Positions 22,398 to 53,951 of a stretch of 64,000 nucleotides of DNA are shown piece after piece. The stretch is from Planctomycetota bacterium (lineage in GTDB: Bacteria > Planctomycetota > Phycisphaerae > Sedimentisphaerales > Anaerobacaceae). The notes under the pieces are model-generated. The model did no database searches. It was not told where the DNA came from and saw only the letters and a list, made by a program, of their open reading frames with translations. How positions within the stretch are numbered: position 1 is the stretch's first letter; each line of letters begins with the position of its first letter. Made by a program: the position numbers and the translations under genes. The stretch covers positions 1 through 64,000 of the forward strand of contig JADFJC010000005.1 of assembly GCA_022566315.1 (NCBI GenBank), read 5' to 3'.

Positions 22398-24755
22398 TCA
22401 TAGAGCGAAACCTAAGGCACCCATCTGTTGTTGTATCAAAGCTATATTTCTCTCAAGACGAGCAAATCGAGCTATCAGTCTTTCTTCTCTTTTAGTAAGG
22501 CGGTTTTCTTCGTATTCAATCTTATCCTGTAGGTATTCTATTTGTTTGTCCACATGTTTCTGGTCGATTTGGATGGTGCCCGTTGTTACCTTGAGCATAT
22601 TATCCAGTGCGTCTTCTATTGTGCCGGTAAAACCCTGCTTTACTCTGACAGTGGCGGTGAAAGTGCCGTCCTGACTTAAGTCAACGCTGAGTTGAAGGGC
22701 GTTCTCGGGATACACAGGGTTACCGTTATCGTCAAAGGTGCTGTCGCCGGTAATTATATTGCCGCTGTATGTTGCATCGCGGTAGGTTGATTCGGTTGAG
22801 AGTTTGATTTTGGCGCTGGTGATTGCTCCGCCACTTACCACCACCTCAACGTCGTAGCTGCCTGCTGTGGTGTACTTGCTGTGGGCGCCGTAAAATTCGA
22901 TAGTATTACTGTCGCTGCTGCCGGTCTTGTCTGCTCCGATTATGGCCAGTACGCCCATATAATCTTCAGCTATTGCTTCATCAAAGACATTCATGTCAAG
23001 ACTCAATACCCCTTCTCTGTCAAGCTTAAAGCCGAGATGTCCCGGCGTCAGGAACGTGTCGATATCCTCTATAAATCCATTGGTCCGGACGATAAGGGGT
23101 GTGCGAATCTGCTGCCTTATGGTCGAAACGACATAATCTCCCATCAAGAGACCGGCGGTTTTTAGAACGTCATTGAAGCCGGTCTTTTCCTTAATATACT
23201 CGACGGCAAAGTTATAGGCATCAACCATTTTGGTTAGTTTGTCTTTTACCGATTGGATATCTCTGGTCAGAGTTAGCTGCTCCCCGTTGGCATCAGTCGT
23301 ATCGTGCAGATGCAGAGTAACGCCGTAGATAACATCGTCCACGGTGTTAGAGCTTCTTTTGATCCACCAGTCTGTGTTGTCGCCTTTTGTCGTTTCCGAA
23401 AAAGTCCAACCGGAAGAGGGGGTTAGGTTACTCGTATCAATCGAAATCATGCTAACATCACCAACAGTACTTCGGAATGTGAATATCGTATCACCATCGT
23501 CCCTCAACCTCGCACCACTCACCGTTATATCGCCAGCTTCGACGTTTGACAATGCCTCAAGTGCAGCTTGAATTTGGGCAGTTGAAGCACCACGGTCAAT
23601 CGCGGCAGTCGTTTGTCCGTCATAAGTTAGGGTAAAGGTACCTCCCGTCGCCTTGTTGGTCTTAGACAGCGCCTGCACCTCGGCAATTCCTGGTCCTGTG
23701 GGGTAGCCATCGATCCTTATCTCACTATCCTGAGCTGATTGAGTTTCAATAAAGTCCGAGGCTGTGAAATTCGCCAGGTCCGCCGTTATTGAGCCACCTT
23801 CTGTCAAAACGGCCATCGTAGGCAATGTTAATGTGGCCGCGGAACCGTTGGCGTTGTACGTTAGGGTAATCGAAAGATTGCTTGCCCCGTATGTATCATC
23901 CGTCAAAACAATTTTGCCATTTTCAAGGACTGCTTTGGCAATGCCGTCAAAAGCATCGTTAATCTCAGCGATGAGATGACTAAGTTTGGTGTTGCTGGTG
24001 ATGCTAAGGTCCACCTGGGTTATCGGATTACCATTGTGGTCTGTACCGGTTATTTCGATAACTTCTCCGCCTTCGAGTGTCCCGCTGAATTGTTCAAGGT
24101 CTGTAACCTTCGTACTCAGCGTTGCGTTATTACTATTCTGTGTAAGTTCACTATCGGCCTGCCACACTTCCGTGCTGCTTGCATTGACCGAGATGGTATA
24201 ATCGGAGCCGGCGTCATTGCCGTTCAACACCAGATGATATGCATCGTTGTAGTACAGCAGGTTGGCTGTAACACCGGGGTTGTTCGCGTCGTTGTTGATT
24301 AAGCCGACCAGGTCCTCCAGTGTTGTAGTCGCTGTGGTCGTTAAGGTTGTTTCCTTATGATTGTATGAGTAGATAAAAGTGCCGGCTCCTACGTAATCCT
24401 CGGCGTATTCTTTGCCGGTCGTGTGAACCCATCGCTCGGCATTGGCCAACTGGTTGACTACGATCGTATAATTGCCTTCAAAAGCGTTATAAGATGCCTC
24501 GGCGGTCAATTTGTCGGTATCGCTGGAGGTAACTGAAAAAGCGCGAAGTTCGTTGGCGTCGGAAAGAGCTCGAACGGAGTTTCTTAAGTTGCTGAGTTTG
24601 GTTTCCAGAGTGCTCAGAGCATCTTGTCTTTCCTCCCAAATACTTATGCGTTCTTTATACACATTAAGTGAACGGCGCTCGATAGCCATCAGTTGGGCGA
24701 TGAGTTTGGTTGTATCTATCCCTGTTAAAAGCCCTGGGAGCTGTAAAGTTGGCAT
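22398..24755 (-). CDS. fliD: Flagellar filament cap protein FliD (HAP2)
   Basis: LPGLLTGIDTTKLIAQLMAIERRSLNVYKERISIWEERQDALSTLETKLSNLRNSVRAL...; C-terminal coiled coil LTKREERLIARFARLERNIALIQQQM. Confidence 0.93.
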   Translation of the reverse strand: MPTLQLPGLLTGIDTTKLIAQLMAIERRSLNVYKERISIWEERQDALSTLETKLSNLRNSVRALSDANELRAFSVTSSDTDKLTAEASYNAFEGNYTIVVNQLANAERWVHTTGKEYAEDYVGAGTFIYSYNHKETTLTTTATTTLEDLVGLINNDANNPGVTANLLYYNDAYHLVLNGNDAGSDYTISVNASSTEVWQADSELTQNSNNATLSTKVTDLEQFSGTLEGGEVIEITGTDHNGNPITQVDLSITSNTKLSHLIAEINDAFDGIAKAVLENGKIVLTDDTYGASNLSITLTYNANGSAATLTLPTMAVLTEGGSITADLANFTASDFIETQSAQDSEIRIDGYPTGPGIAEVQALSKTNKATGGTFTLTYDGQTTAAIDRGASTAQIQAALEALSNVEAGDITVSGARLRDDGDTIFTFRSTVGDVSMISIDTSNLTPSSGWTFSETTKGDNTDWWIKRSSNTVDDVIYGVTLHLHDTTDANGEQLTLTRDIQSVKDKLTKMVDAYNFAVEYIKEKTGFNDVLKTAGLLMGDYVVSTIRQQIRTPLIVRTNGFIEDIDTFLTPGHLGFKLDREGVLSLDMNVFDEAIAEDYMGVLAIIGADKTGSSDSNTIEFYGAHSKYTTAGSYDVEVVVSGGAITSAKIKLSTESTYRDATYSGNIITGDSTFDDNGNPVYPENALQLSVDLSQDGTFTATVRVKQGFTGTIEDALDNMLKVTTGTIQIDQKHVDKQIEYLQDKIEYEENRLTKREERLIARFARLERNIALIQQQMGALGFAL

Positions 24756-24899: not shown

Positions 24900-27800
24900 T
24901 CATTTAGAAACAACTTGCTGTGGCGCCTCGGTATATCTGGCTCGTATGAGTTTAGACTTTTGCAATAACTGCCGCAGACCCTGGTTTTCCGGGTCTATTT
25001 TTACACAGTCATTTAGCTCTGAACAGGCCCGGTCGAAAGCTGTTCTTGAACACTCAGGGGCGTTTGTCTTTACATATTCCTGCCCTATTGCAAGGTATGT
25101 CCCGGCAGTTAGGCATTTAGCGTGCAATTGCCTCATCTCAGGAGCTATCTTATCCCACTCAACGTCCGGAAACAGCTCGTCGTATGTGAACGTATCGGTA
25201 AATCGCTTGACAACATCAAAATGACTTTTTGCCTTTTGGGCGGAGCAATTTCTTGAAAGACTGTCGCTGGTCATTCGGCGCAGATACATAGCACCCTTGA
25301 GATGATGTATTTTCAGACCGGCCTTTACGAACCGCCGCATCATATCGTAGTCTTCACCAACCAGTAACTCCTCGTCAAAAAAGCCGATTTTATCGAAGAC
25401 GCTTCTTCTGATACAGGTTCTGAACGGCACTACCGGAAAGCCACAGTGGAAAAGGTCTCTAATGAGCAATCTTCGGTCCGTGTATTCTGGTCTTTCAATC
25501 ACTCGAATCGGTTTGGAGTTCTCATCAATAAGACAATCGTCACAATAAACCAGGTCAACATCGGGATGTTTTTCAAATTCAGCCAGGTGCGCGGCAATAA
25601 AGTCCGCTGTCATCATATCATCGTGGTCAAGCTTTATTAGAAAAGAGCCTTCGGATTTTTCGATCCCGGTATTGTGCGTGGCAGCAAGCCCGGAATTTTC
25701 ATGGTAGAAGTATTTTATTCTTTCATCTTTAAAACTGAATACTATGTCTTTGGTATCGTCTGTGGAGCCATCGTTAACAACAATCAGTTCGAGGTTTCGG
25801 TAGTTTTGAATTAGAACACTTTCAATTGCCTCTGCGATATGTTCAGCGGCATTGTAAGCCGGCATTATCACCGAAACCAGTGGCTCAGATTGTTTACAGC
25901 AAGAGCTTTGCCGGATACCTTTCTGCTCACTTTGCTGTTCAGAAACGTAAGGCTCGGAAATATTATTGTTTTGCCGTTGTTGGCAACTTTCGTTCTCCAG
26001 ATCAATCAACCGAAGGTCATAAAGCTTGCTGTTTTCCAGATACCAGTTCCGAACATCAGCCTCTATCTGATTTTCGAAATAATCAGATATGAACTGTCTT
26101 GCAGCGGCGTTGTTGTAGTTTTGTATTTCCCTGTTTAGATACCCTCGGCTCTCAGCCTTCATGCTGACCGCAAAGTAGGCAAGTCCCCTAAGAAGGTCAT
26201 AATTCCTGAAAATTCTCTCTACACCTTTAACTCTCTTACCTACGGTATTGAGAGTGATAATACACGATATGTATTTTGAATTGACAAATTGTGCGAGGGC
26301 TCTGTCTGCAAATCTATAGAGCATCGTACGGTTAACAGGCCTGGTGTCAAACTCACGCTCCACAGATTCCTGCAACGCAAGCTCGGCATATTCATTTTGC
26401 TGTTCAGCCCGTGTGGCAGAAACAGCTCCCGGCCAGGACCTCAAGTTATATAGATATTCTCCCAGATTTCGTATCTCTCCGACTTCGGATAATCGTAACA
26501 ACAGGTCATAGTCCTGGGCATATGTGTACTTTTCATTATATCCTCCGATTTCCACCAGAGAGGATCTTCGCAACATCATTGACCCATGGCCAACACAGTT
26601 TCCAATTGGCAAGTTCTTTTTAATATCTTCATATCCTATTGGTGTCTCCTTGCTACCCCAAACCTCGCCATTGGAATCAATTCTGCCATACCAAGAGCCC
26701 AGAGCTACACATTCCGGATTTTCGTTCAAAAATCCTACCTGTTTTTCAAACCGCTGAGGATGAGAAATATCATCCGCATCCATCCGGGCAACATATTCAC
26801 CTCTACATAACTTTAGCCCAATGTTTAAGGATTTTGTTAAGCCCTTATTTACAGAATTTCTACAAATGAACGTCCTTGGGTCTTTCATATTAACGAGTAT
26901 CTCAGAGGTCCTATCGGTGCTTCCATCATCAACTATGATTACCTCAAAATCCTGATATGTCTGGTTGTATATGCTCTCCAGCGCTTGCTCGATATATTTT
27001 TCGGAATTATAAGCAGAAATTAACACGCTAACTTTAGGCCTATTAGTCATGTCCTTGTTCTTTTCCTGGTAAGGTATGAATGCGTTAAAGCCGCCATTAT
27101 AGTAATGCTGAACTCTATCATTGTGCCCCTGCAAGTAAACCAGGCCTCTGTCATCAATGTATTCATACAGTTTTTTATCCAATGTAAGGCGATATAATTT
27201 GCTGTCGGGTATGCCGACAAATACATTGAACCAGGTCACTGTGGGTTTGATTTCCTTTAATAACTGGTTTGTTTGAAGGATATCCAATTCTGTCTCATCG
27301 GGAACTCCAACGATGACACTTGCCGCTGTCTTTACATCAAACTCATGACACCACTTAAAAACATATCTAATTTGCTCGACAGTAATATCTTTTTGCGTCA
27401 AATCCAGCATTCTCTGGGAGCCGCTTTCTACGCCGAAATAAAATCCCCTTAAACCAGCACGTGACATTAGTTCAACAATATCTCTGGTGAGGTTAGAGAC
27501 TCTCGATTCGCAAACCCAGGATATCTTTATTCTTTTTTCTATCATCAGGTTGCAAAACTTTTTCAGCCTTTCTTTGTTAAGAGTAAAGTTATCTTCCCGG
27601 AAGTAGATTCCCTTTGTCCCATAATTCTTAATAAGATATTCGATGTCAGAGACAATCCGCTCAGCGCTAAAATATGTATACTTCTTTCCCCAGATGGAAC
27701 CGACCGAGCAAAATTGGCATCTGAAGGGGCAGCCACGACTGGTGTTCATTGTGAATACAGGCTGGTCTTCAAAAAACCTTACATTCCAATTGTAGGGTAA

Positions 27801-30800
27801 CTTGACAAAATAATCCCAGGCGGGCATTGGGAGCGCATCTAAATTCTCTATTCGAGGATAACTTACGAGCCTCTGAGTTACCTTGCCTTCTACAATATCG
27901 AGAATTGCCTGTTCACCCTCTCCCTGCACGACATAATCAACAAAGTCAGGGATGGTATTTACAGCTACTGTAGTATGTGGGCCTCCTACGATTATCTTTC
28001 CGTTCCATTTATTCGTTTGCCTTAAATGCTCGAGTTTGTGCATCATTCGTAGAGTATCGCGGAGGCAAATTGTATTAGCATAAATGCCCACGTAGTCTAT
28101 TTCATTTTTCCAAAGATAGTCTGTATCGAGAAAGTCGTTCGGCTGTAAGTAGTTATCTATGAAAAATACCTCATGACCGGCGTTACGCAGCACCGAAATA
28201 AGGAAACCAACTCCAATAGGCGGTCTTTTCTCCGAGGTCGAGAATGGAGACTGGGTCGGAGCAGCAGAGGTTGTCAGCAAAATTCTCATGGATTTCTTAA
28301 AATCACTTCCAGGAGTATGCCGGGGGAAGTACGTCGTTTCTTTGTCGTGCAGTTCTTCCGATTTGCTGCAATTATGGTTATTATCAACACCTTGAGCTAA
28401 AAAAACTCTGCCGTATTTATTTCTAATTTCATCGATCTCTTTTAGTCTCTCTTTTTGTTTTCCGGGGCCGATTTCGAGGCCTTGCGGGTTTTTGTAATAT
28501 AATCCGAGTAATTCAGGTATATGAGTAATCGTATAATCTGTGTCAAAAACTATTCGAAGCCAGAAGTCCCAATCTCCTGCAACTTCGTAGTGGGGCTTAA
28601 AATAACCAATAAGCTCGTGAAGTTTTTTCCTCCACATGACTTGAGGGCCACAAGGATTACGCTGTGCTATAACCTCTTTGGAGAAATCAGGCCGTTCTAT
28701 GAAACCGTTTGTATGGTGTTTTTCGAAAGTCTCGTTTGGATAATTCGTGACTATCTGGTCAATATATATCGCACCTATATGTTCGTTGGCTTCAAGGGTA
28801 TCGGCTATTATTTCCAGAGCATCCTGCCTTAGCCTGTCATCGGTGTTTGTGTTTACGAGGTATTTGCCTGAAGCAGCCTGTGCCCCCCTGTTCCAGGACT
28901 TGTAAATTGTCTCACGTTTTTCAATTTTGATATACTTTATGTTATCGTATTGCTGCTGGAATTGACGGACTACGGCATCTTCGTTTTGCTCAGAGCCGCT
29001 ATTTACAACAACTATTTCCAATTTCCCCATTTTAAAAATTGTTTGGTTAATCAAACCTTCAAGACAGCCACGAATGAAGCGTTGAGAGTTGTACATCGAG
29101 ACGATAGCTGAGACAAGATACTTTCTGCTTTCAACGTCTCCTTGGTTTTGCTGCATAACAACGTGTTCAGCCCCTGCTATTAAGTCTTTTTTATACTCGG
29201 GTATAACATCGTCCCAACCTTCGATTCTTTTTTCACAGTTAAGGTTCTCCAATGCCTGTATGACTTTATTATCGTTCGGATTTTCCTGCAAATAGGACAT
29301 ATACAGACTTCTTGCCTCTTGAACCAGGCCATGACTGGTTAGAACCTGACCACAATTCAGAACAGTCGCAAGATCGTAGGGGTTAATTTTGAGAGCATTT
29401 GTGAAATGTTTTAAGGCATTGGCCAGTTCTCCTTTCTGCAAATATGCTTTGCCGATATTATTATGAGCGGCAATAAAGTGCGGAGCAACCTCAATGGCTT
29501 TCTTAAAGGCATTGAGGGCACCATCTATATCTTTCCTACCCAATAATTTCTCCCCTGACAGGTTGTACTTTTCCGCAGAGTTAATAACCGGATGTTCTAC
29601 TTTTCCAGCAAGAAAATCTTTTGTGCCAAGCGCTAAACTATTTTCGGAAGAAACCGTTATTGCCTGTTTGTCGGATAATCTCTGTATAATTTTCAATAAA
29701 GGAACAATCGTGTGGTTCAGATCTAATCTTTTTTCAAAAAACTCCAAGCAATTTAGCCTAAATTTCAACAACTGGCCATTTGTTAAAGGTGTGCTGAAAT
29801 ATCCATTATCATCTACAACCAATCCGAGACCATATTTTCTGACATAATCGCTCATCTGGCCGATTTCATTTATTATTATCGGCAGTCCATGCTGAAGATA
29901 CGTCGCAATTTTGCCGGAAGCCATGCCAAGATATTTTATATTATTACCGGTATACTTAGATTGATATGTAGGCTCATAGAAAGCAATACCGACATCAGCG
30001 GAATGTATTACGCAGTCCAACTGATTAGGGTCAGCGATCGGTTCTAATGAGAAATAAATGTTATCAAAACATTTGTATTTTGCATAATAAGGACGCACAC
30101 CCTGGTCAAGCCCATGTCGGTTATGCACTACCAGCACCCAATCATCCGACCACTGCTTTGCACTTTCAAGTATATAGCCTGCCATAGACCATTGGGCGAC
30201 AGTGCCCATAAACAGTGCGATCTTCTTATCTTTATTAATTCCCAGGGAATCATACAAATAAGAGTTCTTTTCCCCTTTTTTAATACCTCTTCCAGCTACG
30301 GGGATGTTAATTATTTTTTCTAAAGCGATTTTATTCTCAATTGATAAATACTTGGCACGAAGTGCATCCTGACAAACAATAAAATCCAGACACTTGCAAG
30401 CTTCTATTTCCTCTTGCTTAAATTCCTTGCTTGTTTCTTCTTCAAAGAATATTTCATAAGATATCAGCCCACAAGGAATTTCGCGGTTTTGCGCAATTAA
30501 AGCCGCCTCAATTATTCCCCTGTCCACACCGATAACCAAATCATAGCTTTTAAAGTTTTCGTTTATATAGGAGATTATCTTTTCTTGAGAGTTGAGTTTC
30601 GGGTCTTCTAAAATAAAGGTACCATTTTCAACTGACTTCTCTGGCTTGTCTAACAAAAACAGTGAAGCTCCAGCACACCGATAATGTTGTGGAGTGTAAA
30701 ACCTTTTGAGGGAATAAATATCGACCTTATAGCCGTTTTCACACAATATCTCAACAATGCCGGTGAGATTTATATTACTATTAATATTGCCTTCCGGATG

Positions 30801-31652
30801 AACTATCAGGATCTTCCCGGAATTGGAAGAATTACGTTGTGAACTCGCCACAGTAACTGATTTTATCTCTGTTTTTTCTCCGGACCATTTCTTCTTGAAG
30901 TGATTTATCTCATCTCCCGTATAAAAATGGCGACAGTAACGAGATTTATATATCCTTTCCAAATCACTATCTGGTATTGAAATAGAATCAAGCACGCGTC
31001 TATAAAGTCCCTGATACCACTTCTTCTCACTTACATTGTCTTTCACTATGGAAAAATCCGGTACCCCAAGAAATTCCCGGAATGCATCGTGACAACACCG
31101 TGACAGATCCTCAAGTCTTATCAGCAAAATATCTGCATCCTGGACTTTGTATATCTGATAACCAGTCGATTTATTAAAATCATTTGCATATATATCAAAA
31201 TTGAAGACATCTTTAATTTCCTTGTCAAACCAGGTACATGCATAATCAGTTGATTCATTAAAATCAGCAAATGTCTTAAGTATGTGAGAGTTTATATCAT
31301 TAAAGGCGCTCTCTGGGTCAACATTAGTTACATGCGACAGGTCACGTTTTATATTATGAAAAACATCAGAAATGTCACGTGCGACGGGGTCGCGAACCAG
31401 AGTGATTATTTTCCACCGTATATTTCCTGCCGTACTGTCAATCAGGCTTCTTATGTCCTTACAGTGGTCAAGACGTACATTCGTGCCGGGGATGCTTGAA
31501 TAGTGATCTTCTATCTGTTTGATATTACTCCAGGACAAAAAGTGAGTGTGGTAAATTTTGTTCGGCAGGTTGAGTTTCTCAAGAGAGGCCTGAATCGTCT
31601 TGGAACCAACCTTACCCATTTGATAAATAACTATTGGATCAAATCGCTGCAT
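24900..31652 (-). CDS. Giant multidomain protein: sulfotransferase-like + GT-B + TPR + GT2 + B12-binding radical SAM + GT2 + GT2
   Basis: 2250-aa single ORF. MGKVGSKTIQASLEKL (31652-~30850); GT-B-like (~30820-29650); TPR (~29560-29270); GT2 YLVSAIVSMYNSQRF (~29130-28400); B12 region plus TSRGCPFRCQFCSVG CxxxCxxC (~28300-27050); GT2 RPKVSVLISAYNSEKYIEQALESI (~27042-26250); GT2 PLVSVIMPAYNAAEHIAEAIESVL (~25890-25180). Confidence 0.88.
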   Translation of the reverse strand: MQRFDPIVIYQMGKVGSKTIQASLEKLNLPNKIYHTHFLSWSNIKQIEDHYSSIPGTNVRLDHCKDIRSLIDSTAGNIRWKIITLVRDPVARDISDVFHNIKRDLSHVTNVDPESAFNDINSHILKTFADFNESTDYACTWFDKEIKDVFNFDIYANDFNKSTGYQIYKVQDADILLIRLEDLSRCCHDAFREFLGVPDFSIVKDNVSEKKWYQGLYRRVLDSISIPDSDLERIYKSRYCRHFYTGDEINHFKKKWSGEKTEIKSVTVASSQRNSSNSGKILIVHPEGNINSNINLTGIVEILCENGYKVDIYSLKRFYTPQHYRCAGASLFLLDKPEKSVENGTFILEDPKLNSQEKIISYINENFKSYDLVIGVDRGIIEAALIAQNREIPCGLISYEIFFEEETSKEFKQEEIEACKCLDFIVCQDALRAKYLSIENKIALEKIINIPVAGRGIKKGEKNSYLYDSLGINKDKKIALFMGTVAQWSMAGYILESAKQWSDDWVLVVHNRHGLDQGVRPYYAKYKCFDNIYFSLEPIADPNQLDCVIHSADVGIAFYEPTYQSKYTGNNIKYLGMASGKIATYLQHGLPIIINEIGQMSDYVRKYGLGLVVDDNGYFSTPLTNGQLLKFRLNCLEFFEKRLDLNHTIVPLLKIIQRLSDKQAITVSSENSLALGTKDFLAGKVEHPVINSAEKYNLSGEKLLGRKDIDGALNAFKKAIEVAPHFIAAHNNIGKAYLQKGELANALKHFTNALKINPYDLATVLNCGQVLTSHGLVQEARSLYMSYLQENPNDNKVIQALENLNCEKRIEGWDDVIPEYKKDLIAGAEHVVMQQNQGDVESRKYLVSAIVSMYNSQRFIRGCLEGLINQTIFKMGKLEIVVVNSGSEQNEDAVVRQFQQQYDNIKYIKIEKRETIYKSWNRGAQAASGKYLVNTNTDDRLRQDALEIIADTLEANEHIGAIYIDQIVTNYPNETFEKHHTNGFIERPDFSKEVIAQRNPCGPQVMWRKKLHELIGYFKPHYEVAGDWDFWLRIVFDTDYTITHIPELLGLYYKNPQGLEIGPGKQKERLKEIDEIRNKYGRVFLAQGVDNNHNCSKSEELHDKETTYFPRHTPGSDFKKSMRILLTTSAAPTQSPFSTSEKRPPIGVGFLISVLRNAGHEVFFIDNYLQPNDFLDTDYLWKNEIDYVGIYANTICLRDTLRMMHKLEHLRQTNKWNGKIIVGGPHTTVAVNTIPDFVDYVVQGEGEQAILDIVEGKVTQRLVSYPRIENLDALPMPAWDYFVKLPYNWNVRFFEDQPVFTMNTSRGCPFRCQFCSVGSIWGKKYTYFSAERIVSDIEYLIKNYGTKGIYFREDNFTLNKERLKKFCNLMIEKRIKISWVCESRVSNLTRDIVELMSRAGLRGFYFGVESGSQRMLDLTQKDITVEQIRYVFKWCHEFDVKTAASVIVGVPDETELDILQTNQLLKEIKPTVTWFNVFVGIPDSKLYRLTLDKKLYEYIDDRGLVYLQGHNDRVQHYYNGGFNAFIPYQEKNKDMTNRPKVSVLISAYNSEKYIEQALESIYNQTYQDFEVIIVDDGSTDRTSEILVNMKDPRTFICRNSVNKGLTKSLNIGLKLCRGEYVARMDADDISHPQRFEKQVGFLNENPECVALGSWYGRIDSNGEVWGSKETPIGYEDIKKNLPIGNCVGHGSMMLRRSSLVEIGGYNEKYTYAQDYDLLLRLSEVGEIRNLGEYLYNLRSWPGAVSATRAEQQNEYAELALQESVEREFDTRPVNRTMLYRFADRALAQFVNSKYISCIITLNTVGKRVKGVERIFRNYDLLRGLAYFAVSMKAESRGYLNREIQNYNNAAARQFISDYFENQIEADVRNWYLENSKLYDLRLIDLENESCQQRQNNNISEPYVSEQQSEQKGIRQSSCCKQSEPLVSVIMPAYNAAEHIAEAIESVLIQNYRNLELIVVNDGSTDDTKDIVFSFKDERIKYFYHENSGLAATHNTGIEKSEGSFLIKLDHDDMMTADFIAAHLAEFEKHPDVDLVYCDDCLIDENSKPIRVIERPEYTDRRLLIRDLFHCGFPVVPFRTCIRRSVFDKIGFFDEELLVGEDYDMMRRFVKAGLKIHHLKGAMYLRRMTSDSLSRNCSAQKAKSHFDVVKRFTDTFTYDELFPDVEWDKIAPEMRQLHAKCLTAGTYLAIGQEYVKTNAPECSRTAFDRACSELNDCVKIDPENQGLRQLLQKSKLIRARYTEAPQQVVSK

Positions 31653-31979: not shown

Positions 31980-32756
31980 TCAGGTATTTGTAACAACAGC
32001 CCCGCAACAACCGCTCCAAGTGTCAGTTCCAGGCTTTTTTTCAGTCATCCATCCATATGAAAATACCAATTTCATCCCCGCCTGGCGCAAAAACTCTTCT
32101 ATCTCCGGCATAAATAAGTATCTGACTCGATGGCATTCATTAAACTCCTCGATGTTACCGGTGGTTTTGTCATGAATTGTCATATCATAATTCACTTCCA
32201 CACAATTGCTGTTCTCAAGCATTTTTGGCCTTGCAACTCTCTTAATTTCCATTGCCTGCTCGATTATTTTTTTCTCTCGCACCTCGGGTTTTTCAGCCAG
32301 TACAGCCGGTCCATACCAGAAATCAAAAATAAATATCCCTTCGGGCTCTAAGTGTTCGGCAACCACTTCAAACATAGCCTGCAAATCTTCATCAGTTGTC
32401 TGATAACTAAGAACATGAAAAAGCGAGACTATTACATCAAAATTTTTCCCGACGTTTAACTTGCGAATATCGGCTACTTCAAAATTCACCTTTTGGCTGA
32501 CTTGACTACTGAGTTGTGTCTTACGTTCCCCGGCCTTCGCTATCATCTTCTCACTCAAGTCAACCCCAAAAACATCAAATCCCTTCTCAGCAAGACTCAC
32601 CGCATGTCTGCCCGTGCCACATCCCAGATCCAGAATGGATTTTGCACCGGGAGCAAATTTCTCCAAAAGGCCGCAGATATAATCCGTCTCACCTCTGTAA
32701 TCTTTATCATGGTAAAGCAAATCATAATAATGGGCGTAATTGTCAAAGACCTTCAT
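31980..32756 (-). CDS. SAM-dependent class I methyltransferase
   Basis: YYDLLYHDKDYRGETDYICGLLEKFAPGAKSILDLGCGTGRHAVSLAEKGFDVFGVDLSEKMIAKA. Confidence 0.92.
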   Translation of the reverse strand: MKVFDNYAHYYDLLYHDKDYRGETDYICGLLEKFAPGAKSILDLGCGTGRHAVSLAEKGFDVFGVDLSEKMIAKAGERKTQLSSQVSQKVNFEVADIRKLNVGKNFDVIVSLFHVLSYQTTDEDLQAMFEVVAEHLEPEGIFIFDFWYGPAVLAEKPEVREKKIIEQAMEIKRVARPKMLENSNCVEVNYDMTIHDKTTGNIEEFNECHRVRYLFMPEIEEFLRQAGMKLVFSYGWMTEKKPGTDTWSGCCGAVVTNT

Positions 32757-33883
32757 TTAAGAATTTCCTTCAGACACTCCACCACATATTCAATCTGCAA
32801 TTCGGTCAACGCCAATCCGCTGGGGACATAAAATCCCCGCCTTGCAAGCTTCTCAGCAACAGGATAGTTTTCCTTCTCGAACATACCTGTCTTTTTAAAC
32901 ACAGGTTGCTCGTGTATCGGCCAGAAAAAGGGCCTTGTCCCTACCTGTTTGTCAGCCATATATTTTCTTACATAGTCTGCATCATATCCAAAATCATCAG
33001 CCAGCAAAACTCCATAGACCCAGTAGATATTATCTGCGTATGTGATTCGGTCCTTCGGCAACTGCAACTGTTCAATACCCGAAAGTAACTCAGTATACTT
33101 CTTGCCAACCTGATGTTTTTTTTCAATGAATCTATCAAGTTGCTCTAACTGCGCAACCCCCAACGCCGCCTGCAGATTAGTCATTCTGAAATTGTAGCCG
33201 AGTTCATCATGAATAAATCTTCTGTTCTTTTTGAAACATAAGTTCCGCAATTCTTTAGACTTACGAGCAATCTGCTCATTGTCTGTAACTACCATTCCAC
33301 CTTCACCTGTTGTCACCAGTTTATTCGGATAAAAACTGAAAATACTGATATCACCGAAACTACCACAGGGTTTACCTTTATAAGTTAAGCCATGTGCTTG
33401 TGCAGCGTCTTCTATGATTTTCAAATCATATTTTTTCGCGATAGCGATAACTTGGTCCATATCCACCGGCAATCCATAAATATGAACTACCATAATCGCT
33501 TTTGTCTTTGGTGTGATTTTATCTTCAAGTTGTGAGACATCCATATTCCAGGTCACAGGGTCGCTATCAATCAGTACCGGGGATGCGCATGTCCGCACAA
33601 TAGCTGCGGCACATGAGATAATAGTAAATGTCGGCATTATAACTTCATCACCCGGCCCAATCCCTAATGCCGATACAGCCACCTGGAGTGCTGCGGTACC
33701 GCTGCTTACAGCAACACCAAACCTTCTACCTACCCGGGCAGCAAATTCCCTTTCGAATCTTTTGACAAATGGACCCTCCGAAGAAATCCAGCCACTTTCA
33801 ATACACTCAAGCAGATACTTTTTTTCGTTGCCGCAAAGCAGCAGCTCATTAACCGGAACAAAAATGCTTTCAGCTGTTTTCAT
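32753..33883 (-). CDS. DegT/DnrJ/EryC1-family PLP aminotransferase
   Basis: SGTAALQVAVSALGIGPGDEVIMPTFTIISCAAAI...IEDAAQAHGLTYKGKPCGSFGDISIFSFYPNKLVTTGEGGMVVTD. Confidence 0.95.
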   Translation of the reverse strand: MKTAESIFVPVNELLLCGNEKKYLLECIESGWISSEGPFVKRFEREFAARVGRRFGVAVSSGTAALQVAVSALGIGPGDEVIMPTFTIISCAAAIVRTCASPVLIDSDPVTWNMDVSQLEDKITPKTKAIMVVHIYGLPVDMDQVIAIAKKYDLKIIEDAAQAHGLTYKGKPCGSFGDISIFSFYPNKLVTTGEGGMVVTDNEQIARKSKELRNLCFKKNRRFIHDELGYNFRMTNLQAALGVAQLEQLDRFIEKKHQVGKKYTELLSGIEQLQLPKDRITYADNIYWVYGVLLADDFGYDADYVRKYMADKQVGTRPFFWPIHEQPVFKKTGMFEKENYPVAEKLARRGFYVPSGLALTELQIEYVVECLKEILK

Positions 33884-33934: not shown

Positions 33935-34402
33935 TTATTGCGTAAGTAACCTTAAAAGGCAGTGTTTTAGCTCATCAGTTTCTTCAAATCTTTCTTTATC
34001 AACTTCAAAAGAGATATAAGGCCCTTGCTTGACCTCTATTAACTCTGATTCCTCAAGAAAAACAAAGCCGTGTCCTCCGCTGGCTAAAAGAATAACGTCA
34101 CCTGCCACAAGTTCTTCACTTCTTATATATTTTTTTTCGTCCGAATAAAGATCCACTCGAATCCTGCCTGACTTTACAAGTAGAGTCTCCTGTGTGTACT
34201 GGATTTGGCGAACAACTAATTTATGAGTATGGGGAAGAATTTTATGCCCTGCAGGATGTCTCATGTAACCTAACTGCTGGGAGAATTCTTTGGGCGTAAA
34301 AAACTCAACACTATTCGTATGAAAATCGTGAGGAATAATAATAGCTATTAGTTTGTCCCCCGAAGTAATTTCTTTAATCATAGCTAATCTGGAATTTCCC
34401 AT
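33935..34402 (-). CDS. Cupin-fold protein, probably sugar/glycan related
   Basis: GYMRHPAGHKILPHTHKLVVRQIQYTQETLLVKSGRIRVDLYSDEKKYIRSEELVAGDVILLASGGHGFVFLEESELIEVKQGPY. Confidence 0.75.
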   Translation of the reverse strand: MGNSRLAMIKEITSGDKLIAIIIPHDFHTNSVEFFTPKEFSQQLGYMRHPAGHKILPHTHKLVVRQIQYTQETLLVKSGRIRVDLYSDEKKYIRSEELVAGDVILLASGGHGFVFLEESELIEVKQGPYISFEVDKERFEETDELKHCLLRLLTQ

Positions 34403-34419: not shown

Positions 34420-34560
34420 CGCTGCTGTGTCACTACTTACCGCAATACCAAACTTCCTGCCTATATGCGCAGAAAATTGCTCCTCAAACTTTTTAACAAA
34501 CGGTCCCGCTGAAGGAATCTAACCGCTTTCAATACATTCGATTAGGTACTTCTTTGACCC
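34420..34560 (-). pseudogene. Remnant of a second DegT-type aminotransferase N-terminus
   Basis: Minus strand reads GSKKYLIECIESG*IPSAGPFVKKFEEQFSAHIGRKFGIAVSSDTAA*, collinear with EKKYLLECIESGWISSEGPFVKRFEREFAARVGRRFGVAVSSGTAA of the adjacent intact gene; TAG at 34519-34521 replaces W. Confidence 0.9.
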
Positions 34561-41205: not shown

Positions 41206-41913
41206 TCATAATAAACCTTTCTTTCGGCAAGCTTCATACATCAGTTCTGCAAATTCCCAATCCTCAGGCGTATCAATATCCTGAACAAGATAACGAGGGA
41301 GAATGACAGGCTTAGCATCTTTAGCATACAACTGCTTATTTCGAAGGAATTTTGCAGAATCAAACCAGTAAAACTGACCGGCGTCATGATATGCTCTCGG
41401 AAGATCCTGTGACCTGGTCAATTCATGTTCCGGCCAAAACATTTCCACAAAACCTTCGTCATTAATTTTCAATCCCCTAAAAATCGTAAATTCAAATTCG
41501 GTAATACTAAAAACGCTTGAGATGTTTTTTTCGGTCAATAATTTATAGCCTTTTAACAAATCTTCAGAACGAACAAAAGGAGCTGTCGGATAAATACAAC
41601 ATGAATACTTTACTGTTTCCCCTGTCGATTCAAACCATCTTATAGCATGTTCAAGTACTGGTGCAGTTGGTGTATGGTCATCAGAAAGCTCAGAGGGACG
41701 AATAAAAGGAACTTCCGCGCCGGCGGATTTTGCAACTTCGGCTATTCGCTTGCAATCAGTAGATACAATTATGCGATCAAAAACCTTACACTCCTGTGCA
41801 GCTTTAATTGAATAGGCAATGATTGGTTTGCCGGAAAATTTCCTGATGTTCTTGCCTGGAATTCGTTTGCTTCCGCCACGAGCTGGTATAATTGCCACAT
41901 TCAACTCAAACAT
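41206..41913 (-). CDS. pseF: Pseudaminic acid cytidylyltransferase
   Basis: VAIIPARGGSKRIPGKNIRKFSGKPIIAYSIKAAQECKVFDRIIVSTDCKRIAEVAKSAGAEVPFIRPSELSDD...; directly downstream of pseI. Confidence 0.9.
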   Translation of the reverse strand: MFELNVAIIPARGGSKRIPGKNIRKFSGKPIIAYSIKAAQECKVFDRIIVSTDCKRIAEVAKSAGAEVPFIRPSELSDDHTPTAPVLEHAIRWFESTGETVKYSCCIYPTAPFVRSEDLLKGYKLLTEKNISSVFSITEFEFTIFRGLKINDEGFVEMFWPEHELTRSQDLPRAYHDAGQFYWFDSAKFLRNKQLYAKDAKPVILPRYLVQDIDTPEDWEFAELMYEACRKKGLL

Positions 41914-42991
41914 TCTCCGTCAAAAACTGGCTGTTACGTTCATAGCAATGCCAAACCAGCTCCCAGCTAAACGGTGTCCCTTTGTCGATATCACAACTGG
42001 CCGTTTTACCGATTACTTCATCAATAAACTTTGGCGCCAGCCCATAGCCCGGCCGAATAGACCTGACATTATCCTCTGAAAACTTTTGCCCGGCCTTGAT
42101 GTCCTCAACCACAAACAAAGACCGCCTGAAAACCATGTTTCTTTCTTCCTCGGCCGTGATTCCATAGTGAACGCTGCCAATAGCTTTTTCAGCCACCCTG
42201 ATATTTTCCACCAGACTTTTCAATTCCGCTGGCTCTATCGAAAAAAAGCTGTCCGGCGTGTTGTCTTGTCGTGATAAAGTGAAGTGCTTTTCAATCACAT
42301 CGGCTCCCAGAGCCACCGCGCAAACCGACGCTCCAATTCCCAGACTATGGTCAGAAAGACCCACAGGACAATTGAATTGCTCCTTCATGTCCTGAATCGT
42401 TCGCAAATTCATCTCTTCGGTCTTTGCCGGATAGCTTGAGACGCATTTTAATAAGATAATATCCTCCGCGCCTGACCGGTGTGCTGTGTCAACAGCATCC
42501 TGAATCTCACTGATATCACCCATCCCCGTAGATATTATCAAGCCCTTCCCGGTCTTTGCGGCATAGGCTATCAGAGGCAAATCAACCAGCTCAAACGAAG
42601 ATATCTTATGAGCACAAATATCAAGCCCTTCGAGCATGTCAACGGCGGTCTTATCAAACGCTGTGCAAAGAAATATTATCCCCAAATCATCAGCTATCCT
42701 TTTCAGTTCACCAAACCATTCCCACGGCGTATAAGCCTTTTTATAAAGTTCGTACAATCTCTGACCACCCCACTGGGGATGCTCAACCTGAAAATATTTC
42801 CTGTTACAATCAATAGTCATAATATCCGGCGTATACGCCTGAAACTTAACAGCATCAGCGCCGCATTCCTTGGCCGCCTTTATCAAGGCAATTGCTTTTT
42901 CAAGACACTGACCGTGGTTCGCCGAAATCTCAGCGATTATGAATACAGAGCCATTTTCTACAACCACTTTATCGCCGAATGCTACCTGCAT
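41906..42991 (-). CDS. pseI: Pseudaminic acid synthase (NeuB family)
   Basis: IIAEISANHGQCLEKAIALIKAAKECGADAVKFQAYTPDIMTIDCNRKYFQVEHPQWGGQRLYELYKKAYTPWEW...; C-terminal SAF-like region. Confidence 0.93.
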   Translation of the reverse strand: MQVAFGDKVVVENGSVFIIAEISANHGQCLEKAIALIKAAKECGADAVKFQAYTPDIMTIDCNRKYFQVEHPQWGGQRLYELYKKAYTPWEWFGELKRIADDLGIIFLCTAFDKTAVDMLEGLDICAHKISSFELVDLPLIAYAAKTGKGLIISTGMGDISEIQDAVDTAHRSGAEDIILLKCVSSYPAKTEEMNLRTIQDMKEQFNCPVGLSDHSLGIGASVCAVALGADVIEKHFTLSRQDNTPDSFFSIEPAELKSLVENIRVAEKAIGSVHYGITAEEERNMVFRRSLFVVEDIKAGQKFSEDNVRSIRPGYGLAPKFIDEVIGKTASCDIDKGTPFSWELVWHCYERNSQFLTENV

Positions 42992-43656
42992 TTTTCCTCT
43001 TTAGATATCTTCAGAATATGCTTGAAACCTTTATGATAGAAAAAGGCTGGAAATTCTTCATTACTCACTATTCTTAAAAGATTAAATTGTTCACTTATGC
43101 TTTTATTCACATCCAGTTCACTGTCTTTCGCCCTTCTCCTGGCGTAAAACGTTTCTTTTCCCGTTTGTCTGACAGGCCTCAAATTCTTGTAGTTGTCCAA
43201 AAACTCCAGGCACAACTCGACAGACTTCTGCGCCTGCAAGTCCCTGATTTCGTCATGGAGTTCGTGGCCCTGCAAAACTATATAATCACTTATGTATATG
43301 TCACCGGCATCAACGTCTTCTGCCGCTTCAAACAAAACAATTGGAATCCTGTTTTCACCTTCCAATATCTGCCAAAACAACGGAGCCCATCCCTTACCCT
43401 GAGGCAACTGGCTTTCATGGACAACCAAGTTATGTTTATGCTTTTTTAAAAATTGCTTTTTTATTAGGTTGAAATAGCTGAGTATGAAGATCACCTGAAA
43501 TGCTTCTTCGATATCTTGATGGTCATGAAACAGTTCTGACTGATAACCTTCTTCTCTAAGGATTTCGACTAATTTTTGAGCATAGGAGACAAACCAGCTT
43601 TCTTCAGATGTTAAAACAGCTACATTTTGAAATCTCATCTTATCCATCGTACGCAT
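42982..43656 (-). CDS. Formyltransferase-like protein
   Basis: HNLVVHESQLPQGKGWAPLFWQILEGENRIPIVLFEAAEDVDAGDIYISDYIVLQGHELHDEIRD resembles the formyl-transferase fold. Confidence 0.82.
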   Translation of the reverse strand: MRTMDKMRFQNVAVLTSEESWFVSYAQKLVEILREEGYQSELFHDHQDIEEAFQVIFILSYFNLIKKQFLKKHKHNLVVHESQLPQGKGWAPLFWQILEGENRIPIVLFEAAEDVDAGDIYISDYIVLQGHELHDEIRDLQAQKSVELCLEFLDNYKNLRPVRQTGKETFYARRRAKDSELDVNKSISEQFNLLRIVSNEEFPAFFYHKGFKHILKISKEEKCR

Positions 43657-44315
43657 TCAAACGCTTCGGCATATTTTAATCCCGCTTTCATGCCCCACAC
43701 TTTAGCATTCGATTTCGCTCCCTCCAGCGACCGTGGGTGCGGAAACTCTCTAAGCTCTGACTTGTATTGGCTCATAGCTTTCATTTTTGCCTCTATCACT
43801 CCGCTTATGTCAAAAAATACATTTGGTGAAAAACTCAGTGGATAATTCCATTCCGTCGACGACAAAACTTCAAATGAATATATCTGTCTGACTGTTTCCT
43901 CCGACAAAGGCCTCGTTGCCGTCAACACCGCTTTGTATGTGATTTGATGGTCGATATTCAAATCACCGGCATAATGGGTAAACACAATGTCAGGCTTGAT
44001 ATCCTCTTTTGCCTGCTCTATTACCTTTACCAAATCAAGCAAAGCAACCGTATCAAACCTGTTGTCCGCGAAATTGTGGAAGAAAACCTCTTTTACGCCT
44101 ATAATCTCGTTGGCTGCATGTGCCCGCTTTTTCAGTTTTTCAATTTCGCTCTTCACATTCTGGCTGTCAGCTTGGCCATATCTGGCGCCTATTCCTGTCC
44201 CCAGAATCAAAGTATATACTTCACAACCGTCATTTGTCAGCCGTGCTACCGTTCCGCCACAACCAAGGACCTCATCGTCAGGATGGGCCGCAACCACTAA
44301 AACCTTATCCTTCAT
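43635..44315 (-). CDS. PIG-L-family N-deacetylase
   Basis: MKDKVLVVAAHPDDEVLGCGGTVARLTNDGCEVYTLILGTG (AHPDDE motif), THYAGDLNIDHQITYKAV. Confidence 0.95.
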   Translation of the reverse strand: MKDKVLVVAAHPDDEVLGCGGTVARLTNDGCEVYTLILGTGIGARYGQADSQNVKSEIEKLKKRAHAANEIIGVKEVFFHNFADNRFDTVALLDLVKVIEQAKEDIKPDIVFTHYAGDLNIDHQITYKAVLTATRPLSEETVRQIYSFEVLSSTEWNYPLSFSPNVFFDISGVIEAKMKAMSQYKSELREFPHPRSLEGAKSNAKVWGMKAGLKYAEAFECVRWIR

Positions 44316-45009
44316 CTTTTATCTTTATCTTAGCCTGCGCTAAAATATACTCACCCTCCTGCCTCGCATTACAAAATTCAATACTAAGTGTTCCTGTATC
44401 CACAAAAGCGGGAGGATAGCCCTCCGCATCAAGCATTCGTATATAATCATAAATCTTTGTGCTGCTTGCCAAATCCGCTATATTACTCTGCTCGCTTTTA
44501 CGCCTCGTAAATGTTACCACCGTTCCCTCCTGTTCAATCGGCACCGGCTTATCGCGTATGATGGCAGCTATCATATTCTCAAAAACAATCTCTGCGGCAC
44601 GTGTGAATATTTCAGACGCCTTGCCGGCCAAATCCAAATCGCGTTTCATATATACAGGACCGGCATCGACCTGGCTGACAACCCTCAAGGCCGATATCTT
44701 CGTCTTGTATATTCCTCGCTCTATTAAATTCTGCAGCGGACTCCCACCTCTGCCAAAGGGCAAATCAGTCATGTGAAAAACCACACATTCAAAATTATCG
44801 TAAATTTCCTGAGGAATAATCCAGGACCAATGCGGAAAAAATATGTATTCAGGGTCGAATGCCTTGACCCTGTCAAAGCTAAGAGATTTTTTATCGGTTA
44901 TTAATTCGATTTCAAACCCAGGATTGGCGGCAATAAACTTCTGCGTTGTCTCTATATTCCACGATTTGATAGTAGCAATAATGTATTTGTTCGACTTTTT
45001 CATAATCAC
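44305..45009 (-). CDS. Formyltransferase-family protein
   Basis: DNFECVVFHMTDLPFGRGGSPLQNLIERGIYKTKISALRVVSQVDAGPVYMKRDLDLAGKASEIF. Confidence 0.85.
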   Translation of the reverse strand: MIMKKSNKYIIATIKSWNIETTQKFIAANPGFEIELITDKKSLSFDRVKAFDPEYIFFPHWSWIIPQEIYDNFECVVFHMTDLPFGRGGSPLQNLIERGIYKTKISALRVVSQVDAGPVYMKRDLDLAGKASEIFTRAAEIVFENMIAAIIRDKPVPIEQEGTVVTFTRRKSEQSNIADLASSTKIYDYIRMLDAEGYPPAFVDTGTLSIEFCNARQEGEYILAQAKIKIKDEG

Positions 45010-45023
45010 TTAAAGGTCTTCAA

Positions 45024-45692
45024 TCATTCGGTGCCGCGTTTTCTCATCAGAAACATCGTATCTACGTTGTCATCTTCCAGATATTTCACCCGCTTTTCCT
45101 TGACAAGCTTCAGGCCATCAAACGAATCAAGATACAAACGCCCAAAGTCGGTCTTCCAAAGCAGCTCATCGTGCCCTCTGTACTTTACCTCGGTATATGT
45201 ATCGGCATAATACTCAAATCCCCAGATATACTCATTAGTGCATCTGTGGATTTCCATGAGCACCTTTTGTATATCCGAAGGAACAATATGAATAAGTGTC
45301 CCGGAAGTAAACACAAGGTCAAAAAAACCGTCCTTAAAGGGAATATCAAACGCGCTGCCCTGAATAATATTAATGTCACAGGTATTGGCTTTGCTTCGCT
45401 GGACGGCATAGTTGTTTATCTCAATGCCGTACAGGTTTTCAAAGCCCATTTTTTGCAGCAACAGCAATTGGTTTCCGATATTCGAGCCGACTTCGAGAAT
45501 TCTAATCGACCGTTCAAAATCTCCTAAAAACGTCTCATTCAGTTCAGTTCTCATCACGCCATAATGCCCTTGATACCTTTTGTCCATATCCTCCAGCGTA
45601 AGAGCATTTCGGTCGGTGTACTCTTTGCCGAACTTACCTTGCCAGTGCCGGAGCTGGGATGTCATAGCTTTGAGCACTTTCTTCTCCTTCAA
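45024..45692 (-). CDS. Pseudaminic acid biosynthesis-associated methylase-like protein
   Basis: LRHWQGKFGKEYTDRNALTLEDMDKRYQGHYGVMRTELNETFLGDFERSIRILEVGSNIGNQLLLLQKMGFENLYGIEINNYAVQRSK; context in pse operon. Confidence 0.85.
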   Translation of the reverse strand: MKEKKVLKAMTSQLRHWQGKFGKEYTDRNALTLEDMDKRYQGHYGVMRTELNETFLGDFERSIRILEVGSNIGNQLLLLQKMGFENLYGIEINNYAVQRSKANTCDINIIQGSAFDIPFKDGFFDLVFTSGTLIHIVPSDIQKVLMEIHRCTNEYIWGFEYYADTYTEVKYRGHDELLWKTDFGRLYLDSFDGLKLVKEKRVKYLEDDNVDTMFLMRKRGTE

Positions 45693-45732
45693 TTAAGTCT
45701 TTATCAGTCTTTTCATTTTCCTTTCACAAAAT

Positions 45733-46914
45733 TCAGGTTAAACAGTGCTCAACTATCGATTCGACAATTTCCGCACCAACATATTCCATTTCTGTGTTTT
45801 CTAATGCCGGATAAATCGGAATCGATACCTCTCGTTTATAAAATTCTTCCGAGACTGGAAAATCCCCTTCCTTGAAACCAAAACGCCTGCGGTAATAAGG
45901 CTGCAAATGCACAGGAATATAATGCACCTGACAAAATATTTTCCTCTCCCCCAGGTGCTGAAAGAAAACATCTTTTGCCACCGAAATATCATCAAACTTT
46001 ATCTGTAACGGATAAAGATGATATACATGCTCAGTCTCAGGAGTCGTTTGCGGTATAATAAATCTCTCATCTTCACCGAAAATACCATCGTAGTACGCCG
46101 CTATCTGCCGTCTCCTTTTAATGAATCTATCAAGCTTCTTCAACTGGCTCAATCCAAGAGCACACTGGATATCAGTTATTCGATAGTTAAATCCAAGTTC
46201 GTGCATTTCGTAGTACCACGGCCCGTCATTCCTGTCCAAAAGTGATTTATCCTTGGTGATACCGTGCATACGAAGCATTTTTATTTTTTCATCCAGTTCC
46301 CTGCTATCGGTAAGGACCGCTCCCCCTTCGCCGGTCGTGATATGCTTGACAGGGTGAAAACTGAACACCGTTGCATCAGCATATTTCGACGAGCCAATCG
46401 GCACAGTTTTGTACTTGGCACCAATTGCATGGCAGCCATCGTCCACTAATTGAAATTCATACTTATTCGCAAGCCGGCGAAGCGATTCCCACTGACAGGG
46501 CTGACCGGCATAATCGACCGCGACAACCGCCTTTACTCTGTTTCCACAAGCATCATATTGCTTCAGCTTCGTTTCCAGTTTTTCGACGTCAATCGTATAA
46601 GAGCACGCATCAATATCCACAAAATCCGCTTTCGCTCCCGCATACAGAATACAATTGGCACTGGCGAGAAAGGTTATCGGTGTCGTCAATACCACATCGC
46701 CGGCCTTCCAGCCGAGAGCCAAACCAGCCAAATGCAGCGACGCGGTCCCACTGCTGAGAACCGTGGCGCATTCGGATTCAAATTTTTGACATAATGCTCT
46801 CTCGAAATCGCATACATTCGGTCCCTGAGTGAGCCAATCCGAACTTAAAACATCAACTACAGACCGGATGTCGCTGTCGTCCACAAACTGCTTCCCGTAA
46901 GGAATAGGACGCAT
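45733..46914 (-). CDS. pseC: UDP-4-amino-4,6-dideoxy-N-acetyl-beta-L-altrosamine transaminase
   Basis: IPYGKQFVDDSDIRSVVDVLSSDWLTQGPNVCDFERALCQKF...SSGTASLHLAGLALGWKAGDVVLTTPITFLASANCILYAGAKADFVDID. Confidence 0.94.
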   Translation of the reverse strand: MRPIPYGKQFVDDSDIRSVVDVLSSDWLTQGPNVCDFERALCQKFESECATVLSSGTASLHLAGLALGWKAGDVVLTTPITFLASANCILYAGAKADFVDIDACSYTIDVEKLETKLKQYDACGNRVKAVVAVDYAGQPCQWESLRRLANKYEFQLVDDGCHAIGAKYKTVPIGSSKYADATVFSFHPVKHITTGEGGAVLTDSRELDEKIKMLRMHGITKDKSLLDRNDGPWYYEMHELGFNYRITDIQCALGLSQLKKLDRFIKRRRQIAAYYDGIFGEDERFIIPQTTPETEHVYHLYPLQIKFDDISVAKDVFFQHLGERKIFCQVHYIPVHLQPYYRRRFGFKEGDFPVSEEFYKREVSIPIYPALENTEMEYVGAEIVESIVEHCLT

Positions 46915-47896
46915 CGTCTTTCTCCTTATCTTCTACCATCTTCGCCAGGTCCTCCACTTCCAGCCAATGCTTATTATTATCACTTCTGTAACCGGCAAAA
47001 CCTGTATTGAGCGGCTTACCGTCTCGCCGCTCAAAGTCACGCTCTACCACATGCGGATAAATAACAAACTTGTCCTCAAACTCATAAGTGTGGATGCCGT
47101 CATCAGGAGAAACTAAGGTCTCATGAAGTTTTTCGCCAGGCCTTATACCAGTTACTATCTGTTCACATTCCGGGGCTACAGCTCTGGCCAAGTCCACTAT
47201 TCTCATACTTGGTATCTTGGGAACGAATATCTCACCGCCGGCCATTTCCAAAAGTGACCTTAATACAAAACTAACGGCCTCCTCCAGAGTCATCCAAAAA
47301 CGTGTCATTCGTTCGTCCGTTATGGGAATTTGTCCCTTTTGTCGACATTCCTTGAAAAACGGCACAACACTCCCTCTGGAGCCAAAGACGTTGCCATACC
47401 TGACAACACTAAACTTTTTACCCTTAGGTGAATAATTATTTCCTGCAATAAAGAGTTTCTCGGCACATAGTTTTGTAGCGCCGTATAAATTCACAGGGTT
47501 TGCGGCTTTATCAGTGCTTAAAGCGATTACTTTTTTCACTCCATTATCAATGGCAGCATCAATAATATTCGCAGCTCCAAATACATTGGTTTTTACCACT
47601 TCAAACGGATTATATTCGGCGGAAGGAACTATCTTAAGCGCAGCTGCATGAATGACATAATCAACACCGCTGAAAGCACGGTGCAATCTATTAGAATCAC
47701 GCACATTGCCGATAAAATACCTCATACAGGGATCATTAAAGCACTTTTGCATTTCATACTGTTTCATCTCGTCTCGGCTGAAAATTATAAGCTTCCTGGG
47801 GCTAAATTTACTTAATACTATTTCGATGAACTTCTTACCGAACGACCCTGTCCCGCCAGTAACAAGTACAACCTTGTTGTTCAGTGAGTTTTCCAT
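46853..47896 (-). CDS. pseB: UDP-N-acetylglucosamine 4,6-dehydratase (inverting)
   Basis: LNNKVVLVTGGTGSFGKKFIEIVLSKFSPRKLIIFSRDEMKQYEMQKCF...VDYVIHAAALKIVPSAEYNPFEVVKTNVFGAANIIDAAIDNGVKKVIALSTDKAANPVNLYGATKLCAEKLF. Confidence 0.95.
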   Translation of the reverse strand: MENSLNNKVVLVTGGTGSFGKKFIEIVLSKFSPRKLIIFSRDEMKQYEMQKCFNDPCMRYFIGNVRDSNRLHRAFSGVDYVIHAAALKIVPSAEYNPFEVVKTNVFGAANIIDAAIDNGVKKVIALSTDKAANPVNLYGATKLCAEKLFIAGNNYSPKGKKFSVVRYGNVFGSRGSVVPFFKECRQKGQIPITDERMTRFWMTLEEAVSFVLRSLLEMAGGEIFVPKIPSMRIVDLARAVAPECEQIVTGIRPGEKLHETLVSPDDGIHTYEFEDKFVIYPHVVERDFERRDGKPLNTGFAGYRSDNNKHWLEVEDLAKMVEDKEKDDASYSLREAVCGRQRHPVCS

Positions 47897-53739: not shown

Positions 53740-53762
53740 TTTTCGTATCTTATATAGTAGTG

Positions 53763-53947
53763 ACTAAAGTGAGCTAAAGATTCAGGCTATCAGCGTATCA
53801 GGCCCCTAAGGGGTGGGTATCAGGGTTATCAGAACATCAGGCTCGTTTTTCCACCGTAAGGTGTCCTGTGAACTGATACCCTAATATACTGGTAACCTGC
53901 ATCCTGATTTCCTGATATGCTGATATCCAAACTTTAGACGCTTTATG
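53763..53947. repeat. CTAAAGTG-bounded composite repeat with nested TATCAGG array
   Basis: gactaaagtgagctaaag ... tatcagcgtatcaggcccctaaggggtgggtatcagggttatcag ... cctgatatgctgatatcc ... aaactttagacgctttatg. Confidence 0.75.
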
Positions 53948-53951
53948 TTTT

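Follow-up and report, generated by a model that had tools for sequence, protein, structure and literature searches.

The locus and its open reading frame

The window, that is the whole stretch of DNA analysed, comprises 64,000 nucleotides of contig JADFJC010000005.1 (positions 1 to 64,000; assembly GCA_022566315.1, Planctomycetota bacterium, Anaerobacaceae). It contains an open reading frame (ORF) of 2250 codons without stops. The original prediction had described a single uninterrupted ORF that places sulfotransferase-like, GT-B, TPR, three GT2 and B12-type radical SAM domains on one scaffold. The frame proved to be open and to lie on the minus strand, which that prediction had not stated, and the domain list was borne out by Pfam matches, predicted fold and motifs. 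From the N-terminus the seven modules are arranged in the order sulfotransferase (ST), GT-B, TPR, GT2, B12-binding/radical SAM, GT2, GT2. A search of genome contigs in the database with the whole protein returned only an unrelated Psychroserpens GT2.

Features of the window (residue numbers refer to the 2250-aa protein)
Feature	Position	Strand	Remarks
Whole ORF, putative modular glycan-assembly protein	24900..31652	-	stop-free 2250-aa frame; syntenic giant ORFs in relatives
Sulfotransferase-like domain, residues 1-262	30867..31652	-	PF10364; 5'-PSB-like YQMGKVGSKTI, 3'-PB-like RDPVARDIS
GT-B domain, Gtf3/GT4-like fold, residues 280-660	29673..30815	-	weak PDB match and predicted fold
TPR repeats and linker, residues 662-835	29148..29669	-	Pfam
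GT2 domain 1, residues 836-1090	28383..29147	-	Pfam; homologue abuts that of GT2 domain 3 in nine relatives
Cassette of B12-binding/radical SAM (CPFRCQFC) and GT2 domain 2 (about 1535-1770), residues 1102-1796	26265..28349	-	
GT2 domain 3 plus conserved tail (C-terminal core), residues 1921-2250	24903..25892	-	
fliD (flagellar cap), 3' neighbour of the giant ORF and anchor gene	22398..24755	-	
N,N-dimethyltransferase-like gene (DesVI/TylM1-like)	31980..32756	-	
DegT aminotransferase, perosamine synthetase-like	32753..33883	-	
Small protein, cupin-like by reading only	33935..34402	-	conserved beside DegT/methyltransferase genes in distant genomes
pse-type nonulosonic acid genes	41206..47896	-	CTP_transf_3, NeuB, formyltransferases, deacetylase-like, Pse_Me-ase, PseC, PseB
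flgL and flgK, far border of glycosylation island	52567..55910	-	
Flagellin, 272 aa, candidate acceptor	1840..2658	-	same contig

The ORF belongs to a run of minus-strand genes that extends from flgK-flgL via the pse genes to fliD. Glycan genes are thus enclosed within the hook/filament gene region, as expected of a flagellar glycosylation island, and this setting supports glycosylation of flagellar proteins. A flagellar glycan role had been proposed earlier from the proximity of fliD and pse genes; pseB, pseC, NeuB and a CMP-transferase gene are in the same run. Upstream of the ORF, the DegT protein resembles perosamine synthetase and the methyltransferase resembles DesVI/TylM1, suggesting that the two genes serve a predicted donor pathway for an N-methylated amino-dideoxy sugar. 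The small cupin-like protein encoded beside them had no match in Pfam or PDB.

Two further ORFs of the island were noted. One encodes a separate 462-aa B12-binding radical SAM protein (39680-41068, minus strand). The other, within 34529-39566 of the same strand, is another fusion, 1398 aa long, in which Pfam places a GT2 domain between two methyltransferase domains. It stops where the next GT2 ORF starts and the GT2 start motif is out of frame, an apparent frameshift that may be real or an assembly indel. No homologue spanning half the length of this fusion was detected in the fetched loci.

Domain content of the giant protein

The N-terminal domain matched NKWYS (PF10364) at residues 129-245 (1.3e-22; 80.7 bits against a Pfam gathering cut-off of 25.1). 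The PAPS-loop-like MGKVGSKTI noticed earlier forms part of a 5'-PSB-like motif, with GKVGS at residue 13, and a 3'-PB-like motif, RDPVARDIS, is at residue 87. Both PAPS-like motifs (YQMGKVGS and RDPxARDIS) are kept in a distant homologue from genome G201, and an APS kinase that could provide for PAPS supply is encoded in the genome (3.0e-58). These observations make PAPS use by this domain plausible, and with it the sulfation originally predicted. A PDB search with the domain returned chance matches only.

The region at about residues 280-660 had nothing above cut-off in Pfam or NCBIfam. A weak match to a Gtf3-type glucosyltransferase in PDB (5e-4) and a predicted GT-B fold, with Staphylococcus aureus BshA (6d9t, TMt 0.75) and Streptococcus agalactiae GtfC (4w6q, TMt 0.69) as structural matches, agree with its earlier description as GT-B-like. 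TPRs were located by Pfam at about residues 700-820. Stand-alone counterparts of the first two modules are found as a 321-aa sulfotransferase in G461 and a 431-aa GT-B protein in G388. The three predicted GT2 domains were recovered as three PF00535 stretches (1.2e-93, 312 bits, above cut-off), with the motifs NTDD, DADD and DHDD at residues 936, 1625 and 2009 of domains 1, 2 and 3, respectively.

Between the first two GT2 domains, Pfam identified B12-binding (PF02310, residues 1144-1252) and Radical_SAM (PF04055, residues 1302-1463, 8e-23) domains above cut-off, with CPFRCQFC at residue 1308. The presence of both families and of CxxxCxxC places the module in the B12-binding radical SAM superfamily, as had been anticipated. 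The C-methylation attributed to it was not established. Among the NCBIfam matches shown every one lay below its cut-off, which leaves no methyltransferase model matched above it; the AprD4 model NF033070 failed as well, with 102 bits against a cut-off of 500. The nearest solved relative both by sequence (6.5e-21) and by fold (1.5e-18) is AprD4, with the B12 methylases TsrM and MgmA ranking behind it. Since the structure model of residues 1100-1768 had low confidence over GT2 domain 2, the radical SAM part alone was used. AprD4 (PDB 6fd2) is a radical SAM 1,2-diol dehydratase with a sugar-containing substrate and a reductase partner, AprD3 (PMC5461906). It differs from the window module, to which it is about 20% identical, in being a stand-alone protein. 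With AprD4 as nearest solved relative, deoxygenation has no less support than C-methylation as the predicted reaction.

Giant proteins at the fliD loci of relatives

At loci with readable upstream context, we looked 5' of fliD for an ORF of 900 aa or more that carries GT2 and lies no further than two same-strand genes away. Such a giant was present at 32 of 55 loci of the family, where closed giants have a median length of 2110 aa and reach up to 4014 aa. The other 23 comprise three loci with GT ORFs cut by the contig end, one with a giant TPR ORF devoid of GT2, and 19 with none of these; at most of the 19 a small ORF of 100-130 aa, read as candidate FlaG, is found instead. Five of 12 loci from other families of the order also carry a giant, which brings the total for the order to 37 genomes. 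Outside the order, 16 loci with recognised fliD were sampled from further families of the class and phylum; no adjoining GT2-bearing giant was detected at them, and one had little upstream sequence. Related giants of the f36 genomes do not adjoin fliD. In G163 the island comes after flgKL, and in the stretches read from G201, G351 and G305 no flagellar gene was recognised beside the giants.

Module content of individual proteins is diverse. In the longest giant (G064, 4014 aa, L084 3697-15741) radical SAM plus SPASM replaces the B12 type. A 2582-aa protein of G305 (L140 1121-8869) contains Sulfotransfer_1, TylF and methyltransferase stretches together with GT4 and GT2, and a 1941-aa TPR protein near fliD in G036 (L118 4205-10030) has no recognised GT domain.

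Among the family genomes sampled, 14 of 26 with fliD and 0 of 11 without it have the C-terminal core at an identity of roughly 55% or higher (Fisher 0.0022), which supports a flagellar role; the genomes are related and incomplete, so the figure is indicative only. We also considered that the core might simply track fliD. This idea was weakened by an identity rank correlation of only 0.46 and by G014, whose FliD is 76% identical and which has no core.

Across the family the modules of this locus have been shuffled, a property beyond what the original prediction could see. Giants of the congeners G004 and G005 have their last 1282 residues in common at 82% identity, and upstream of this point no match was found at thresholds of E 1e-10 and 35% identity. 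Homologues of GT2 domains 1 and 3 are directly adjacent in G001, G004, G005, G006, G011, G015, G022, G046 and G090; in the window protein the radical SAM-GT2 cassette intervenes between them. G008, G009 and G025 have the cassette at 68-76% identity, as part of other arrangements. In G019 the radical SAM module has a gene of its own (457 aa) with a GT2 gene after it, in a cluster that reads like one for exopolysaccharide and in a genome without a FliD match, and the cassette is therefore not flagellum-specific.

For residues 1-690 no full-length homologue was found among 88 family genomes. G201, which belongs to another class, has 50% identity over residues 4-661, within a 1678-aa ST-GTB-TPR-GT2-GT2 protein. 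The three genes upstream of the giant are also common to f36 genomes including G201 (DegT 61-68%, methyltransferase 40-48%, small cupin-like protein 51-55%); among the fetched family loci no counterparts this similar were found. The GC content of the ORF climbs from 0.38 in the N-terminal modules to 0.45 in the C-terminal core, with 0.48 in fliD. The homology to G201, the trio shared with f36 genomes and the GC gradient point to exchange of donor-sugar genes together with the 5' half of the giant gene.

Proposed role, alternatives and known systems

At the level of sequence, the seven fused modules, their position with the flgKL/pse island on one side and fliD on the other, and the block-wise variation across the family make it probable that the product works in the cytoplasm as a modular glycan-assembly protein serving flagellar proteins (flagellin and/or cap). 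Its activity, acceptor and step order we infer as follows, the order of steps and the role of the TPRs being guesses. GT2 domains 1 and 3, the core, would attach or start a chain on the acceptor, while the TPRs might hold acceptor or partner proteins. The radical SAM-GT2 cassette would add a sugar that then undergoes radical modification, either deoxygenation/dehydration or C-methylation. The N-terminal GT-B domain would add a distal sugar, possibly the predicted N-methylated amino-dideoxy sugar of the upstream genes, and the sulfotransferase would sulfate it. In-frame recombination would gain and lose modules and so alter the glycan. Against this role stand the 19 family loci where fliD lacks a giant neighbour, the f36 giants away from fliD and the radical SAM gene of G019.

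A different substrate can be envisaged. The protein might build a polysaccharide of the cell surface, such as LPS O-chain, capsule or exopolysaccharide, and lie beside fliD incidentally; PF10364 is named as a capsular polysaccharide family, Capsule_synth domains are present in sister giants, and the stand-alone radical SAM gene of G019 sits amid polysaccharide-type genes. We consider this unlikely in view of the repeated adjacency of giants to fliD in the order, the flgK-flgL and pse genes at the opposite border, and the fusion of a Maf-like domain in G006. It is more improbable still that the modules are joined merely as a co-regulated set, with some of them inactive scaffolds and one or two GTs at work. 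GT2 domain 1, where NSGS and NTDD replace the commoner DDGS and DxDD, would fit such a set, but the motifs of GT2 domains 2 and 3 look complete, every module keeps recognisable motifs and the long frame is open.

It is very improbable that separate genes were fused into this ORF by an error of assembly or prediction. The source assembly is indeed fragmented (244 contigs), and the exact seven-module order was found nowhere else. However, ST-GTB-TPR-GT2-GT2 (G201) and radical SAM-GT2 (G008, G009, G025) do occur fused, a fused counterpart exists for most junction types, and ORFs of comparable length occupy the same locus in dozens of independent assemblies, including the single-contig genomes G022 and G082. 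Chance or a chimeric contig is therefore a poor explanation, and an assembly chimera was rejected. The lack of homologues with this fusion, which the original prediction had named as a ground for refutation, is borne out by half.

Returning to glycan assembly on flagellar proteins, the equally large and differently assembled versions at the same locus in relatives suggest a mix-and-match line for flagellar sugar coating. We tentatively propose, with somewhat less confidence than the role itself, that the fliD locus may be an evolving assembly line in which modules and donor-sugar genes are swapped as in-frame cassettes and radical SAM acts in cis on the growing glycan. If so, flagellar glycans would diversify via protein fusion instead of separate genes. 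Should the modules work as supposed, their order could predict glycan structure, and the family would represent natural recombination experiments for glycan engineering.

We regard the window protein as an unusually large, shuffled form of the multidomain glycosyltransferases of flagellar glycosylation islands. Multidomain glycosyltransferases are known; flagellar ones of 2000-4000 residues with interchangeable modules (sulfotransferase, radical SAM, methyltransferase, GT) at a fixed locus were not found described. A literature search, which had most subscription papers outside its reach, retrieved no report of comparable flagellar giants and nothing relevant on flagellar multidomain glycosyltransferases, radical SAM/glycosyltransferase fusions or giant genes. 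In the chlorovirus PBCV-1, A111/114R has three GTs in 860 aa and A064R combines GT and methyltransferase functions, so that a single polypeptide with several modules extends a protein-linked glycan (PMC7826918). By description their mechanism resembles the one proposed here; these proteins are viral, act on an N-glycan and are far smaller, and no radical SAM, sulfotransferase or TPR module is described in them. Donor hydrolysis has been assayed in vitro with excised modules of A111/114R. In Enterobacteriaceae, flagellin glycosylation islands likewise show a changing set of GT genes and genes for sugar modification beside flagellin, and include GT41 and GT2-30 proteins fused to methyltransferase domains (PMC4875605); the text of that paper contains neither radical SAM, tetratricopeptide nor "fused", and no description of giants this large was found. 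Gtf3/GtfC, of serine-rich adhesin glycosylation, resembles the window GT-B region by weak sequence match and fold, although identity is low.

Maf glycosylates flagellin with pse-type sugars ahead of export (PMC4065374). Its MptE-like domain (PF01973) is absent from the window protein by Pfam. In G006 a 1123-aa protein (L039 9009-13121) joins a Maf-like domain to the same GT2 pair; it adjoins a 188-aa fliD-like fragment far from the main fliD of that genome.
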